From positions 1-64,000 of the forward strand of contig CASFYV010000005.1 of NCBI GenBank assembly GCA_949298985.1: a stretch of DNA of 64,000 nucleotides, written 5' to 3'. The position numbers and the translations under genes were made by a program. This document shows positions 26,800 through 38,348 of the stretch, piece after piece. Below the pieces are notes generated by a model. The model was not told where the DNA came from. It worked only from the letters and a program-made list of their open reading frames with translations, and did not search any database. Position 1 is the stretch's first letter. The number at the start of each line of letters is the position of its first letter. This DNA is from an uncultured bacterium. Its GTDB lineage: Bacteria > Cyanobacteriota > Vampirovibrionia > Gastranaerophilales > Gastranaerophilaceae.

Positions 26800-27300
26800 T
26801 TATTTCAGAGTTTTGATTTTTTCAAGAAAAGCTTTTCCCCAATTCATTAGATTTGGATATTTATCCTGTTTTAATCCATATTTAATCCATTCCGCTTCAT
26901 TTTCTTGCATTGTTCCTATTCCTTTTATGGATTTATAAATAAAAGAATATAGACCTGTCCTATCAGCTCCGTGCATACAATGAATATGAACTTTTTTATT
27001 TTGTGAAGAAATTTTTTTTATTAAATCTAAAAATTGAAAAACTTTTGATTCTTCCGGGTATCGAGAGTTTGATGGAATATTATGATAAGTCATTCCTTGT
27101 TTTTTTACAATTGTTTCTTCATCAAATTTTGGTCGGTCTGTAGTAAATGTTCGAAAGTTAATTATATCAGTAACACCTTGAGATTTTAACCATTCAAAAT
27201 CTTCTTTTTGGGGTTGTGCTGATCTTGAGATAAAATTATCTATTTTTTGATAATTAGGAGGTTGACCTTTAAAATTAATTGTTGATAGTGGATATTTCAT
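26800..27300 (-). CDS. Tyrosine/dual-specificity phosphatase-like protein
   Basis: A 166-residue protein with the protein-tyrosine-phosphatase loop HCMHGADRTG (Cys108, Arg114). It is preceded by the dual-specificity-type segment RSAQPQKEDFEWLKSQGVTD and the strand IINFR. The N-terminus MKYPLSTINFKGQPP carries the recurring leader-like motif of this genome. The substrate is unknown: proteins, phosphoinositides or nucleotides are possible. It overlaps the upstream CCA-adding enzyme gene by 26 nt and is the last gene of the MATE-rsmE-cca run. Confidence 0.85.
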   Translation of the reverse strand: MKYPLSTINFKGQPPNYQKIDNFISRSAQPQKEDFEWLKSQGVTDIINFRTFTTDRPKFDEETIVKKQGMTYHNIPSNSRYPEESKVFQFLDLIKKISSQNKKVHIHCMHGADRTGLYSFIYKSIKGIGTMQENEAEWIKYGLKQDKYPNLMNWGKAFLEKIKTLK

Positions 27301-30693: not shown

Positions 30694-30761
30694 AAGTTAA
30701 TTATAGTATAAAAGCAAAATAAGTATCTATCTTAAAGGATATTTATGTTATTATAAAGAAA

Positions 30762-30896
30762 ATCAAATACGAGGAAACATTGGTGAAATTCCAAGACTGT
30801 GCCGCAGCTGTTAAAGTCAGAATGCTCTAAAATATGTAAAAATTGCGATTCACGATTTTACATTTGGCTTCTAATGCTGCGGAAATATTTAGCAAA
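30762..30896 (+). promoter_or_regulatory. Cobalamin riboswitch (short form)
   Basis: The B12-aptamer core is present. GAGGAAAC is followed by TTGGTGAAATTCCAA (P3 hairpin, 30780-30794). GACTGTGCCGCAGCTGTTA (P4-P5 region) comes next, then AGTCAG-AATGCTC. A later AT-rich hairpin (about 30834-30863) exposes TGCG (30844-30847), the exact complement of CGCA in loop 5 (30803-30806), matching the conserved L5-L13 kissing interaction. The peripheral CCACTG/GGGAAG arm is absent, which puts it in the compact class. The region between the last hairpin and the AAGGAAG site (about 30896) contains CTTC and GCT, which can pair with the site, so control is probably translational. Confidence 0.85.
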
Positions 30897-30909
30897 GGAA
30901 GTTTTTATT

Positions 30910-31602
30910 TTGTCAAACGCAGTAACACAAGTAAATAAAACAAATGCAGGGCTTTGTCCTCACGGGCTTCCACCAAGTGCGTGTCCTATATGTTCCAATA
31001 TGGGCGGAGGTTCAATGAGGGTAGGAGAGCGTCCTCAAAAAGCAGGTGAGATGAGTTATCATCAATGTGCAATGATTGGGGCAATGATGAAAGCAAGAGC
31101 TATTAGGCTGGAAAATCATGAAAAAAATCTTCAACAAAGAGCCGAAGCCATTTTACAATTTCAAGCGAATCTTGATAAAATGATTCAGAAAATGGGTGAA
31201 TTTGTAAATAAAATATCAAATAACTTTCTTTTGGCTCCTGTTGGTTATACAATTAATAATATCGTCGTTCCAATATTGAGAATGATTAGAAATATCCCTA
31301 ATATTATTTCTAATGTTCAAGATAAATTATCACAAATTAAACAGAAATTTATTGATATACAAGATAAATTAACTGCTATTTTTGGAGAAGCAAAAGCTTT
31401 TGTTCAGAAAAAAATCAGTGAGCTAGTTAGTGTTATTAAATCTAAGTTTGAAGGTCTTTTTAAGATTTTTAAGCGTAATAATACACAAGATGACGAAACT
31501 AAAATTGATGAGGATAAAAAGCTTTTTAATTTAAAAACAGTAATAAATAAAATATTAAATCGAAAGAAAAAAGATGATTCAGAAGATAAATCAAGATCTT
31601 GA
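30910..31602 (+). CDS. Unknown protein with Cys/His cluster, under cobalamin-riboswitch control
   Basis: A 230-residue protein of unknown function. I chose the TTG at 30910 because AAGGAAG lies 8-9 nt upstream. The open frame reaches back to 30799 but runs through the riboswitch. Near the N-terminus is LCPHGLPPSACPICSNMGGG, a C-x9-C-x2-C plus His cluster that could bind a metal or cofactor. Next come a Met-rich region (CAMIGAMMKARAI), a coiled-coil-like helix (ENHEKNLQQRAEAILQFQAN) and an amphipathic or membrane-associating middle (LLAPVGYTINNIVVPILRMI). A long helical, lysine-rich C-terminus completes the protein. There is no signal peptide. It overlaps the next gene by about 29 nt. Confidence 0.7.
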   Translation: MSNAVTQVNKTNAGLCPHGLPPSACPICSNMGGGSMRVGERPQKAGEMSYHQCAMIGAMMKARAIRLENHEKNLQQRAEAILQFQANLDKMIQKMGEFVNKISNNFLLAPVGYTINNIVVPILRMIRNIPNIISNVQDKLSQIKQKFIDIQDKLTAIFGEAKAFVQKKISELVSVIKSKFEGLFKIFKRNNTQDDETKIDEDKKLFNLKTVINKILNRKKKDDSEDKSRS

Positions 31603-33100
31603 TTCTAATATACATAGAAAAAATATGACAAAAACGCAAAAGAGGAATGATGCAAATGTTCAAGAAGGTGTTATTGTAAATTCTTTTGTGAAAGATCCTC
31701 TTATGGATGGGGTAAAAGCCGGAAGTTTTGATAGTGAAACAAGTAGATTTACTCCTTTGAATGAAACGATTGATACGTTAATAATTTCGAATTCACAAAT
31801 TGATTTACCCGTAAAAATTTATGAAAAAGAAGATAAAAAAAGGAATCCATTAATTCCTTTAATTATAGGTACGGTTGGATTTATGGGGCTTTTAGGTGGT
31901 TTTACGGCAATGATAAAAAAGTTTTCTAAGGGTAAATTAGAATCAACTAAAGAGTATTTGCTTCCGGGAATTACAAGAAATCATTGTATTAATGATGAAA
32001 TTCATCAAAGTATTTTTAGTATGATTCAATCACCTAATAGAAAAACTATTTTGGCATCTTTAGGAGTTATAACTCTCGGTTCTATGGCTTTTATGGGGAA
32101 AATTTTTATAGATGGTTTTAAAGAAGTTTGGGTAAAAAAACAAGAGGCGGATATTCAGAAAAATCTTCAAGAAAATTTGATAGAAGTTGAAACTCAGTCT
32201 TTTTCAGGAAAAATTCAGATAATCAGAAGTATGTTATCTTCAAAAGCGGATCTTCTTTCTAAAGAATTATCGTTTAAAGGTGAGAAAGATCATAAGGGGA
32301 ATGATAAGTCTGATAAATTAAAATTGCTAATATTAGGAAGTGTTGCTTTGTTATCAATTTTAGGTTTAGGATATTATGCTGTAAAAAATATTAGAAAAAG
32401 TGATGAATATATAAAAAATAGTATTAAAAATACAAGATTGGGTATTGATAAGGTTATTGAAGATTTTAATAATGGTAAAAATTTAGATAATATTCAAGGT
32501 CATTTTGGAGAAATTTTATCAGGAAAGGAGGCTTATAAACATCTGATTGAAAATATGTTGGAATCAATTTATGCAACTCCTAGTGATATAAAAAATTATG
32601 TAGACAAAATGAATCTTAAAGATGTTGAAAAAAAAGAATTTATTAATTATTTGAGTGAAAGTATGAATCAGGCAACAGAGAAAGTAAATGCGGCAATCGG
32701 TGGTTCTGGAAGAAATAAAATTACATATTTTTCTCATGTTAATGATTATTTATCATTTTTCTATGATTGGCTTATGAATCCTAGAAATCCGCAATTTAAA
32801 AATTTGTTTTTTGGGATTGCGGGAGTTTCAGCTTTAGCTTATGGTGGTAAATCTGTGGTAGAAGCGATAAAAGAGGTTCAGGTAAAGAAATATAATGCTG
32901 AAATAGAATTAGATTTGCAAAAAAGATTAGTTTCAACTGAACTTCGCAACTTCAAAGCGAAAAAAGAGTCAGCGATAGAACCTTTGTGTGATGAATTTTT
33001 TAAACAAAAACAAGATGGTAAATCAAAAGAAGATTTGAAAATTATTGCGGATAATATTTTATTTGAAATTAAAAATGGTCCGCCTTTTGTATATTCTTAA
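31574..33100 (+). CDS. Large membrane protein of unknown function, second gene of the riboswitch operon
   Basis: A 508-residue protein. Hydrophobic segments lie near residues 96-118 (LIPLIIGTVGFMGLLGGF), 157-178 (LASLGVITLGSMAFMG), 252-270 (LLILGSVALLSILGLGYYAV) and 407-425 (LFFGIAGVSALAYGG), separated by charged helical stretches. Two of them are followed by a similar unit (VWVKKQEADIQKNLQENL and VQVKKYNAEIELDLQKRL), so the protein looks like an internal repeat of membrane helix plus coiled segment. The function is unknown, but it is in the cobalamin-regulated operon. The start may instead be ATG 31625. It converges on the next gene with overlapping stop codons. Confidence 0.7.
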   Translation: MIQKINQDLDSNIHRKNMTKTQKRNDANVQEGVIVNSFVKDPLMDGVKAGSFDSETSRFTPLNETIDTLIISNSQIDLPVKIYEKEDKKRNPLIPLIIGTVGFMGLLGGFTAMIKKFSKGKLESTKEYLLPGITRNHCINDEIHQSIFSMIQSPNRKTILASLGVITLGSMAFMGKIFIDGFKEVWVKKQEADIQKNLQENLIEVETQSFSGKIQIIRSMLSSKADLLSKELSFKGEKDHKGNDKSDKLKLLILGSVALLSILGLGYYAVKNIRKSDEYIKNSIKNTRLGIDKVIEDFNNGKNLDNIQGHFGEILSGKEAYKHLIENMLESIYATPSDIKNYVDKMNLKDVEKKEFINYLSESMNQATEKVNAAIGGSGRNKITYFSHVNDYLSFFYDWLMNPRNPQFKNLFFGIAGVSALAYGGKSVVEAIKEVQVKKYNAEIELDLQKRLVSTELRNFKAKKESAIEPLCDEFFKQKQDGKSKEDLKIIADNILFEIKNGPPFVYS

Positions 33101-34311
33101 AGATTTTGTTTTTTAAGAGAGTTTTCATATCTTTTTTTAGTAAAGTAATTGGTCATCCCTGCAACGAAAAATCCCATAATTCCAATAGAAAAGATGTATG
33201 GAAGCCCTGTAATTAGAACTTTTTGTTTTACTAAAGATTTATATTCGTCTTGAATATTAGTTTTTCTTTTTTTAGCAAATTTTTCTGCGAGATTACCTAA
33301 GTCATCAAATTTTGGTACATTTAAATCTTTATCAATAGTGTCTTTACATTTACCCATTTTACTAAGGATTTTTTTGAAAGCGTGTTCTACAAATTCACTA
33401 CCTGTAATCACGTATAAAGCAACTAATGGAAATCTTGTTGCTGTTTCTTTTAGGTTTTCTTTTCCTCTATCCGCGGACGCTCCAAAATATCCGGCACCGC
33501 CTACTAGTACACAAGTTGTTAGTTGTCCTTTACTTAGACATAATTTCCCATTTTGATTATTAAAATCCATGCATAAATATTTATTGAAGAAATTTTTTGC
33601 TTTTTTATTCTTTTTAAATAATTTACTACCGGGAGCAACAATAAATTCAGAAATATTTTGTAAAATTTTTGAATTCTTTCCTTTTGTAGCAAGTAATGTT
33701 GCAAGGCCTAAGCAACCTGCATATAAACCTGCAGCTAGTTTTATATGATTTTTTGCACTTTTTCTAACTTTTTCTTGATGAGCTTTGTCCTCTTTATTAT
33801 TTTCTAAAGAAGCTATATTTTTAAAATCACTTTTGTTAAATATTTTTAAAGTCATTAAATTTTTGATGTAGTTTAGAGAAAATTCTGTAAGAGGAATTGC
33901 CATTGCAGCAAGTGCTATTGCAGCTTTTACAGGAAGTGTTTTTTTGTTGTTATTTTTAGTTATAGGGTTATATTTAGCTTTTTCGATTAAATCAACTCCC
34001 TTTGTTGCAACTTCTTTTTTTAAGTTGTTTGGTAAATTTTTAGAAAATATTTTTCTTGCAACTCTTTCTCCTAAAATTGTAGGCACAAAATAGATTAAAG
34101 CTTCTTCAGTTGTTTCTAAAAAAGTATTTTCGGTTAAATCGGCTAAGCTTCTTGAAAAAACAACTTTTGGAATAAGACAAGTTGTTGCATCTTGTATAAA
34201 TCTCGTCGTAGAAAGTCCGGATGCTTGTTCTTTATGTCTTACGAATTTAGCTGCAGGACGTAGAGATTTTGGTAATGTGTCTATTAATATTTTGTTATTG
34301 TTTGACGTCAT
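33097..34311 (-). CDS. Membrane protein of unknown function
   Basis: A 404-residue protein with hydrophobic segments near residues 127-142 (KAAIALAAMAIPLTEF), 190-207 (LAAGLYAGCLGLATLLA), 265-285 and 370-392 (ITGLPYIFSIGIMGFFVAG). The last is followed by MTNYFTKKRYE. It contains basic loops and the ESRG-like segment SRSLADLTENTFLETTEE. The arrangement resembles the gene at 36903-38348, so the two may be distant relatives. The start ATG follows AAAGGAAC. It is a single gene, opposite in direction to the riboswitch operon. Confidence 0.7.
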   Translation of the reverse strand: MTSNNNKILIDTLPKSLRPAAKFVRHKEQASGLSTTRFIQDATTCLIPKVVFSRSLADLTENTFLETTEEALIYFVPTILGERVARKIFSKNLPNNLKKEVATKGVDLIEKAKYNPITKNNNKKTLPVKAAIALAAMAIPLTEFSLNYIKNLMTLKIFNKSDFKNIASLENNKEDKAHQEKVRKSAKNHIKLAAGLYAGCLGLATLLATKGKNSKILQNISEFIVAPGSKLFKKNKKAKNFFNKYLCMDFNNQNGKLCLSKGQLTTCVLVGGAGYFGASADRGKENLKETATRFPLVALYVITGSEFVEHAFKKILSKMGKCKDTIDKDLNVPKFDDLGNLAEKFAKKRKTNIQDEYKSLVKQKVLITGLPYIFSIGIMGFFVAGMTNYFTKKRYENSLKKQNL

Positions 34312-36902: not shown

Positions 36903-38348
36903 TTACTTTGTTTTCTGTTTGTCTTTGCTGTAATCATAAAGCCCAGGGAAGGCGTCTACACCAGTTGTTTTCTTTGTAACATAGTACTGAATTTTTGGAA
37001 TGACATAAGATAAGAATATTGCTGCAACAGAAAAACCTGCGGCGAAATTTATTCCATTATATATTAAGTTTTTCTTCTGTACTTTTTCAATTAATGCTTT
37101 ATCAATTTTTCCATCTTTAGATTGTTTGCAAAGATATTCGACATATTTTATCATTTCATCTTTTAGATTATAAAGACTTTTATTTGATACATATTTGAAC
37201 TCATCTTTATTAGCACCTTTAGTAAAATCTGTAAAGACTTTATCTAAAAGTTTAGGGTCATTTATTTCAGCAACGTTAAAAGCATCGATTAATTGTTGTT
37301 TTGTTAATACAGCTTCTCCTATTCTTTCAGGTTGTAATTTCGCCATTTCTCTTGCTCTTTCAAGAATCTTAGAATCTGTTATATGTTTTTCAGCTTCGCT
37401 TAATTTGATTACTTCAAGAGGTTTTCTTTTAAATAATTTATCAAAAGCAGAAGGCTTAGTTGTTTCAAAGTTTATTTCCTTAGGAAGTTCGATATTTTTA
37501 CCTAAAACCGCATTTTTAAAATCATCAACATTCATTTTGTTATCTTTAATATAATTTAAAAGATGTTTATTTAATGTTTCAGCAGTAGCAGGGTTCAATC
37601 TTGTAGAATTTCCGGTTTGAGCAAGGTTAAGAAGATTTCTAACGTGTCCTTGAGCCCACATATAGAAATAAATTGAACCGATATCACGAATTGCAATTTC
37701 TCTACGTTCTTCTTTTGTACGAGCATTGTACATTCTTCCGCCTGCAATACCTGCATCACTAGATAATAATTTGCCAGTGTTTGTATTTTCAATTGCATTT
37801 GTGAAAACATTTATCGCGTTTATTCCAGCACCTTTAAATGAAGGATTATGTTGAGCCTTTAGTCGTTCTAATTCATCTCTTTGTTTTTTTAGTTTTTTTG
37901 TAAGTCCTTGATTGAATTTAGGAACAACAAAACCTATAAACAAGTTTGTAATAATGACACTGGTAAGTACTTTTGCTCCTTTAATTAAAGCAACTTGTTT
38001 TGCATTGAATCCTTTAGGAGCAACTTTTTTCATGAAGTTTTCAAAAGGAGTTCTTAAAGCTTTATCTGTTCCAACATCAAAATTCTTAGTAGTTTTTAGA
38101 ATTTTATTAACTAATTTATCCCCAAGAGCATTCATTGCCCCGACCCCGCAAAGCCAAACAATTGATCCTGAAGATTCCTCAATAAAACGTTCTCTAGCTT
38201 CATCAATACCGCCACGATGGTAAGCTTGGTAAGTTCTTCCTGCAACAACAGTAGCTTCTAGTGCTGCAATCGGTGCCATAGCGTCAGCTTTTGTCATTGA
38301 TGTTATTACTTTTGATAAAGTTACTTTATTACCTGAAATCGGATTCAA
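36903..38348 (-). CDS. Membrane protein of unknown function with two related membrane segments
   Basis: A 481-residue protein starting at a TTG (MNPISGNKVTLS) with AAGG 7-8 nt upstream. Two hydrophobic segments end in near-identical motifs: FIGFVVPKFNQGLTKK (about residue 140) and FLSYVIPKIQYYVTKK (about residue 460). Each has a membrane helix, a Pro-Lys, and a TKK ending. A related form (FFVAGMTNYFTKK) is at the end of the gene at 33097-34311. Between them is a soluble, charged region of about 280 residues. Another hydrophobic stretch is GSIVWLCGVGAMNALG. The function is unknown. It sits alone upstream of rplS, reading away from it. Confidence 0.7.
   Translation of the reverse strand: MNPISGNKVTLSKVITSMTKADAMAPIAALEATVVAGRTYQAYHRGGIDEARERFIEESSGSIVWLCGVGAMNALGDKLVNKILKTTKNFDVGTDKALRTPFENFMKKVAPKGFNAKQVALIKGAKVLTSVIITNLFIGFVVPKFNQGLTKKLKKQRDELERLKAQHNPSFKGAGINAINVFTNAIENTNTGKLLSSDAGIAGGRMYNARTKEERREIAIRDIGSIYFYMWAQGHVRNLLNLAQTGNSTRLNPATAETLNKHLLNYIKDNKMNVDDFKNAVLGKNIELPKEINFETTKPSAFDKLFKRKPLEVIKLSEAEKHITDSKILERAREMAKLQPERIGEAVLTKQQLIDAFNVAEINDPKLLDKVFTDFTKGANKDEFKYVSNKSLYNLKDEMIKYVEYLCKQSKDGKIDKALIEKVQKKNLIYNGINFAAGFSVAAIFLSYVIPKIQYYVTKKTTGVDAFPGLYDYSKDKQKTK

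Follow-up and report, generated by a model that had tools for sequence, protein, structure and literature searches.

A predicted AdoCbl-II riboswitch leads a lineage-specific membrane operon in Gastranaerophilales

Introduction

The B12 riboswitch of M. tuberculosis ppe2 has been shown experimentally to have a translational OFF arrangement (PMC11260477). It is a compact class II element with an L5-L13 kissing loop and overlapping target genes, the first of which encodes a lineage-specific protein of uncertain function. This protein, PPE2, is a member of the PE/PPE family and shares its operon with cobQ and cobU (PMC11260477). Among small membrane systems outside the BtuCDF and ECF families, the cobalamin transporter BtuM is a single protein of six transmembrane helices in which a conserved cysteine ligates the corrin cobalt (PMC6072759).

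Here we analyse a cobalamin riboswitch and two genes, A and B, in a 64,000-nucleotide stretch of DNA (the window) from Candidatus Gastranaerophilales (Melainabacteria), a lineage with relatives from rumen and gut. The locus resembles that of ppe2 in its compact class II aptamer, kissing loop, overlapping genes and lineage-specific first target, although the OFF arrangement is predicted here. It differs in that no cobalamin gene lies in the operon, and no sequence relation was found. Like BtuM, A and B would make up a small membrane system that belongs to neither the BtuCDF nor the ECF family. In contrast to BtuM, with which it is compared by description, B consists of two homologous halves with four hydrophobic segments in all and does not combine six helices and an invariant cysteine, and the Cys/His cluster sits on the separate protein A. 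The riboswitch class is known and its set of target gene families is new, with ppe2 as the precedent for lineage-specific targets of B12 riboswitches. A literature search, which was not exhaustive, found no paper linking a riboswitch with Gastranaerophilales or describing the A-B operon. That a cobalamin switch is conserved ahead of genes without a known family, in more than 100 sampled species of a common animal-gut order, is direct evidence for undescribed B12 biology.

Results

A sequence-only reading of this DNA had placed a B12 aptamer directly 5' of two overlapping genes and proposed a search with the Rfam cobalamin models. That search confirms the aptamer: Infernal (cmscan, Rfam 15) reports AdoCbl-II (RF01689) at 41.3 bits (E 1.9e-6 for the window), above the gathering score of 36.5 bits (Table 1). 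The 31 contigs (1.79 Mb) of the window's genome hold no other RF01689 match and none to the larger RF00174 model. The core nucleotides of RF01689 are kept. The J3/4 segment carries GGAA and no UCU is seen by eye at J6/3, a combination from which the preferred cobalamin form is not assignable. We infer that the leader RNA binds cobalamin.

Table 1. Features of the riboswitch-A-B locus (window coordinates).
Feature	Coordinates	Strand	Basis
AdoCbl-II riboswitch aptamer	30759..30835	+	cmscan 41.3 bits; single RF01689 match in genome
Aptamer loop L5 (GCCGCAGC), half of kissing loop	30801..30808	+	Sequence; 7-nt complement at 30876-30882
Hairpin GTAAAAATTGCGATTCACGATTTTAC, interval between aptamer and regulatory stem	30836..30861	+	Read in sequence; role inferred
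Anti-Shine-Dalgarno strand GGCTTCT of regulatory stem (P13-like)	30866..30872	+	Pairs with 30897-30903
L13 loop GCTGCGG, complement of L5	30876..30882	+	7 contiguous pairs; L5/L13 co-variation
GGAAGTT, Shine-Dalgarno strand of regulatory stem	30897..30903	+	6 nt 5' of start codon
Gene A, 230 aa, TTG start; N-terminal Cys/His cluster, then all-helical	30910..31602	+	ORF, alignment, dN/dS, model
Gene A codons 16-28, CPHGLPPSACPIC	30955..30993	+	C16, P17, H18, G19, C25, P26, C28 invariant
Gene B, 508 aa membrane protein, four hydrophobic segments, two homologous halves	31574..33100	+	ORF, alignment, hhalign
Gene B repeat copy 1, residues 144-215: membrane segment and VKKQEADIQKNLQ helix	32003..32218	+	hhalign E 5e-11
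Gene B repeat copy 2, residues 393-465: membrane segment and VKKYNAEIELDLQ helix	32750..32968	+	hhalign

We read the leader as a translational OFF switch of classical layout, which would mask the ribosome-binding site of gene A. Its L13 sequence sits in the loop of the GGCTTCT/GGAAGTT stem, whose 3' strand is the Shine-Dalgarno region, so that the kissing loop is coupled to the expression platform as in other RF01689 members. We compared 53 distinct leaders from the window's clade with mononucleotide shuffles. A complement to L5 of at least 7 nt is present in 74% of the leaders and 10% of the shuffles, and the kissing element together with a stem holding the Shine-Dalgarno in 45% and 1.2%, respectively. 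L5 position 7 and its partner co-vary across relatives (A-T 18, G-C 14, G-T 8, A.C 1; Fisher p 1e-4, a value that ignores the kinship of the sequences). Minimum-energy folding of the leader alone gave an uninformative z of -0.4, and the comparative analysis was used in its place. We propose that the aptamer would bind cobalamin when its intracellular level is high, that L5 of the ligand-bound aptamer would kiss the L13 loop, and that the regulatory stem would then sequester the gene A Shine-Dalgarno and lower gene A translation. Translation of gene B would fall too, by way of its 29-nt overlap with the end of gene A, and both proteins would be made when cobalamin is scarce. Repression of A and B by cobalamin is thus predicted, and this OFF mechanism, which is well supported by sequence, forms part of our best explanation of the locus.

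The longest open reading frame of gene A in a program-made list opens at GTG 30799, within the aptamer. The true start is almost certainly TTG 30910, since AAAGGAAG (30894-30901) lies 8 nt upstream and the alignment of relatives begins there; many of these also have TTG at this position. The CPHG...CPIC cluster attributed earlier to the first protein is present, and C16, H18, C25, C28 and C53 are invariant in an alignment of 34 orthologue sequences. These residues could bind zinc, cobalt or corrin cobalt. The structural model of A is all-helical and of low confidence (pLDDT 64-66 for the A and B models), and neither model has a Foldseek match below E 0.001. The best PDB profile match to A, a designed helical binder (E 9e-4), was read as coiled-coil composition, and weak PspA/ESCRT-III-like fold-search matches (E above 1) were set aside.

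The invariance of these five residues would suit a system for acquiring cobalt or another metal, repressed by cobalamin, in which the Cys/His cluster of A hands the metal to the membrane protein B. Cobalt transporters are classical cobalamin riboswitch targets, and the CbiMNQO and CbtAB systems are cobalamin-repressed. Cobalt uptake serves corrin synthesis, however, and E. coli CobS, CobT and CobU, the three corrin-related queries of the search, have no tblastn match in ~87% of the window's genome. The CobA genes of other genomes are solitary, and a Cys3His cluster most often means zinc. We consider metal acquisition very unlikely.

Protein B has four hydrophobic segments, at about residues 105, 168, 261 and 420, in agreement with the earlier description of a 508-residue protein with about four membrane segments. 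The internal duplication of a VKK...LQ unit proposed in the same reading is real: the first and second halves of the protein align as homologues (hhalign 97%, E 5e-11), with 26% identity across 72 columns. The C-terminus EIKNGPPFVYS is conserved, and no cysteine is invariant among 34 sequences. A PDB profile search with B returned nothing. Its model is all-helical and of low confidence (pLDDT 64), with a best Foldseek E of 0.12 and a best VIA Z of 6.9 among helical bundles. For both genes, dN lies far below dS, indicating purifying selection. Two further membrane-type proteins of the window, at 33097-34311 and 36903-38348, also have no Pfam match; profile comparison rejected them as kin of B, and short F-K-G type motifs recur by eye in both and in other proteins of the lineage.

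Neither A nor B matches a Pfam or NCBIfam family at its cut-off, in line with the earlier statement that they resemble no BtuB, BtuCDF, CbiMNQO, ECF, cobalamin synthesis or isozyme protein. At the same cut-offs neither carries a recognisable CbiMNQO, ECF or Cbt transporter domain. By sequence, A and B, with C where it adjoins them, look co-transcribed and belong to no recognised family. A third gene, C (~150 aa), lies 3' of A-B in 24 of 35 larger neighbourhoods; this is not the arrangement of the window's genus, where it adjoins the operon at 1 of 61 loci. In the window's genome, C stands alone on another contig (L277:15670-16056), with no riboswitch in front, after a gene that by eye looks like a prepilin peptidase. 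Pfam and NCBIfam searches gave nothing beyond chance-level helical matches for C, as for A and B, and no enzyme domain is found in any of the three.

Riboswitch, A and B keep this order throughout the lineage. RF01689 was found in 267 of the 287 genomes sampled from the window's family, and the first 31 loci examined mostly show the order aptamer-A-B, with 5 in which the aptamer precedes a class III ribonucleotide reductase. Gene B is next to gene A in all 35 larger neighbourhoods and was found in 162 of the 386 genomes drawn from the whole phylum, every one of them within this order; these counts and the E-values given here refer to drawn samples in which related genomes are not independent. 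A search upstream of orthologues, also suggested by the earlier reading, found the aptamer at all 116 A loci whose upstream sequence was long enough. Of these aptamers, 105 matched by pattern and 11 were recognised by eye, the latter having substitutions or being cut at their left end. The strict pattern matched 0 of 1,871 control stretches. Two loci (L192, L097) have no gathering-level match, their aptamers being enlarged by insertions; such peripheral-loop insertions in some relatives, and targets of unknown families, are where these riboswitches depart from typical RF01689 members, with which they share an above-threshold score, the core nucleotides and a kissing loop that masks the Shine-Dalgarno. 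Three outcomes that the sequence-only reading had named as counting against it, a sub-threshold Infernal score, an aptamer missing at orthologues and membership of a known unrelated family, were not found. Upstream of gene A at two other loci (L064, L191), two AdoCbl-II-like aptamers lie back to back on opposite strands, one leading A-B and the other facing away, apparently toward another gene.

This conservation bears on whether the riboswitch of the window's genus is an unresponsive relic, merely inherited. Few or no B12 users in that genus would fit such a history. Against it, aptamers of the genus score 41-52 bits and keep their core despite sequence divergence, compensatory changes preserve the loop-loop pairing and the Shine-Dalgarno stem, and both genes are under purifying selection. 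A relic is highly improbable.

The same aptamer class has two other targets in the order. In two genomes of another family (G477, G485), an AdoCbl-II aptamer leads an operon of TonB receptor, FecCD permease, ATPase and binding protein; both genomes also have A-B-C, there behind a lower-scoring aptamer (28 bits). G227, from genus g6, likewise has a btuBCDF-type operon with an AdoCbl-II aptamer in front. The name btuBCDF-type rests on operon structure and riboswitch, no protein scoring above an NCBIfam equivalog cut-off. Such operons (L110/L102 in G477, L067 in G227) occur in few members of the order. A and B have no homology to any part of the BtuB-BtuCDF system, and neither they nor the window's genome include a TonB-dependent receptor or FecCD-type permease. 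As A-B-C coexists with a riboswitch-led btuBCDF-type operon in G477 and G485, A-B is not simply a replacement for that operon.

The third target of the aptamer in the order is the class III ribonucleotide reductase (nrdD, nrdG). Within the same family, the aptamer precedes nrdD at L015, L018, L025, L026, L027, L056, L058, L070 and L071. The known targets of this aptamer class in the order are thus uptake and a B12-independent isozyme. nrdD is the B12-independent stand-in for nrdJ, and on this model A-B-C could be a B12-independent version of a B12-dependent process and hence be shut off by cobalamin. Control of nrdD by the same aptamer class and the retention of A-B in genera that lost NrdJ and CobA speak for this. 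However, A, B and C show no recognisable enzyme family or catalytic domain, which disfavours a replacement isozyme, and we know of no B12-dependent counterpart that the duplicated membrane protein could replace. On balance, a replacement role is clearly unlikely.

Most sampled members of the lineage seem to have no conventional importer. Neither a FecCD permease nor a TonB receptor was found in any of the 30 genomes sampled from families f1 and f2, a sample that left out genus g6, the home of the G227 exception. AdoCbl-dependent NrdJ occurs in 15 of these 30 genomes and CobA in 16. Scored together in 32 genomes, NrdJ and a CobA/CobO adenosyltransferase go together almost without exception: both are present in 17, CobA alone in 1 and neither in 14. 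The CobA genes examined are solitary, outside any synthesis cluster, and clustered corrin synthesis around CobA was sought in G073 and G005 and not seen. Most NrdJ-positive Gastranaerophilales carry two separate CobA/CobO genes per genome, which do not lie in a cobalamin cluster. CobA accompanies A-B somewhat more often than its absence (20 of 33 versus 4 of 11), a weak and non-significant association in hand-picked draft genomes (Fisher p 0.19). PduO and QueG were found in 0 of 47 genomes tested and are uninformative for association.

In the window's genus, neither CobA nor NrdJ was found. The window's genome contains NrdD and NrdG, with NrdD the only ribonucleotide reductase found, and searches for PduO, QueG, FecCD permease and TonB receptor in it were negative; E. 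coli MetH, MetE, NrdA, NrdB, EutB and EutC have no tblastn match in the same ~87% of it. The B12-binding domains of this genome lie in radical-SAM proteins, of which one is HpnJ/BchE-like. B12-binding radical-SAM proteins would need cobalamin, though not the adenosyl form, and these are the only candidate B12 users in this genome. Genus g26, in which A-B and the riboswitch are absent, also has a B12-binding radical-SAM match.

These genomes raise the prospect that B12 acts as a cue for niche or community state and controls a lineage-specific envelope or membrane structure, built from A, B and C and unrelated to corrinoid metabolism. The riboswitch and A-B persist in genera with no AdoCbl-dependent enzyme found, and A and B look structural, with long helices, a duplicated membrane module and no known domain. 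In the window's genome, moreover, gene C lies apart beside the putative prepilin peptidase and not behind the riboswitch. On the other hand, cobalamin riboswitches nearly always serve genes for corrinoid or cobalt uptake, synthesis or isozymes, and the other two targets of this aptamer in the order are of these kinds. We regard the cue as unlikely, although it is a serious contender.

Discussion

We propose, as a best guess held tentatively, that A and B serve corrinoid acquisition or handling. In this explanation, which we favour while still doubting it, the locus would be a lineage-specific, cobalamin-repressed membrane operon whose products A and B, and perhaps C, help to acquire or handle corrinoids under scarcity. 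A, B and the C protein encoded beside them in most genera would form a membrane complex, with B as a two-fold duplicated membrane part extending long helices outside the bilayer. Protein A would be the helical partner of B, either soluble or peripheral, and would bind metal or corrinoid cobalt through its Cys/His cluster.

The sequence-only reading had suggested an unrecognised corrinoid or cobalt acquisition system. Its corrinoid half fits the context, because some relatives have btuBCDF-type operons behind this riboswitch class, and because most of the sampled family is without a BtuC-type permease or TonB receptor while many members have NrdJ and CobA. Its cobalt half is less likely, since a limited search of the window's genome found no corrin-synthesis gene. 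Several observations count against acquisition: A-B-C stands beside a btuBCDF-type operon in two genomes, the presence of A-B does not track CobA significantly, no AdoCbl-dependent enzyme was found in the window's genus, and no transporter-like fold was recognised in the low-confidence models of A or B.

A more specific version, in which A-B(-C) is a new family for corrinoid import or handling that dispenses with TonB receptors and BtuCD-type permeases and provides the B12 route of most Gastranaerophilales, is rather doubtful. If A-B-C does import corrinoids, it would explain how the AdoCbl-dependent reductase is supplied without BtuB and BtuCDF-type transport. If it does not, cobalamin would serve as a signal where it has hardly any use as a cofactor.

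Two minor observations stand apart from the operon's function. Three loci (L138, L142, L191) come from records named Acinetobacter or Fusobacterium sp. CAG:439 and carry the Gastranaerophilales operon, so that these public names look wrong. Elsewhere, at 26800-27300, the window encodes a protein resembling tyrosine or dual-specificity phosphatases (Pfam Tc-R-P, E 5e-9).
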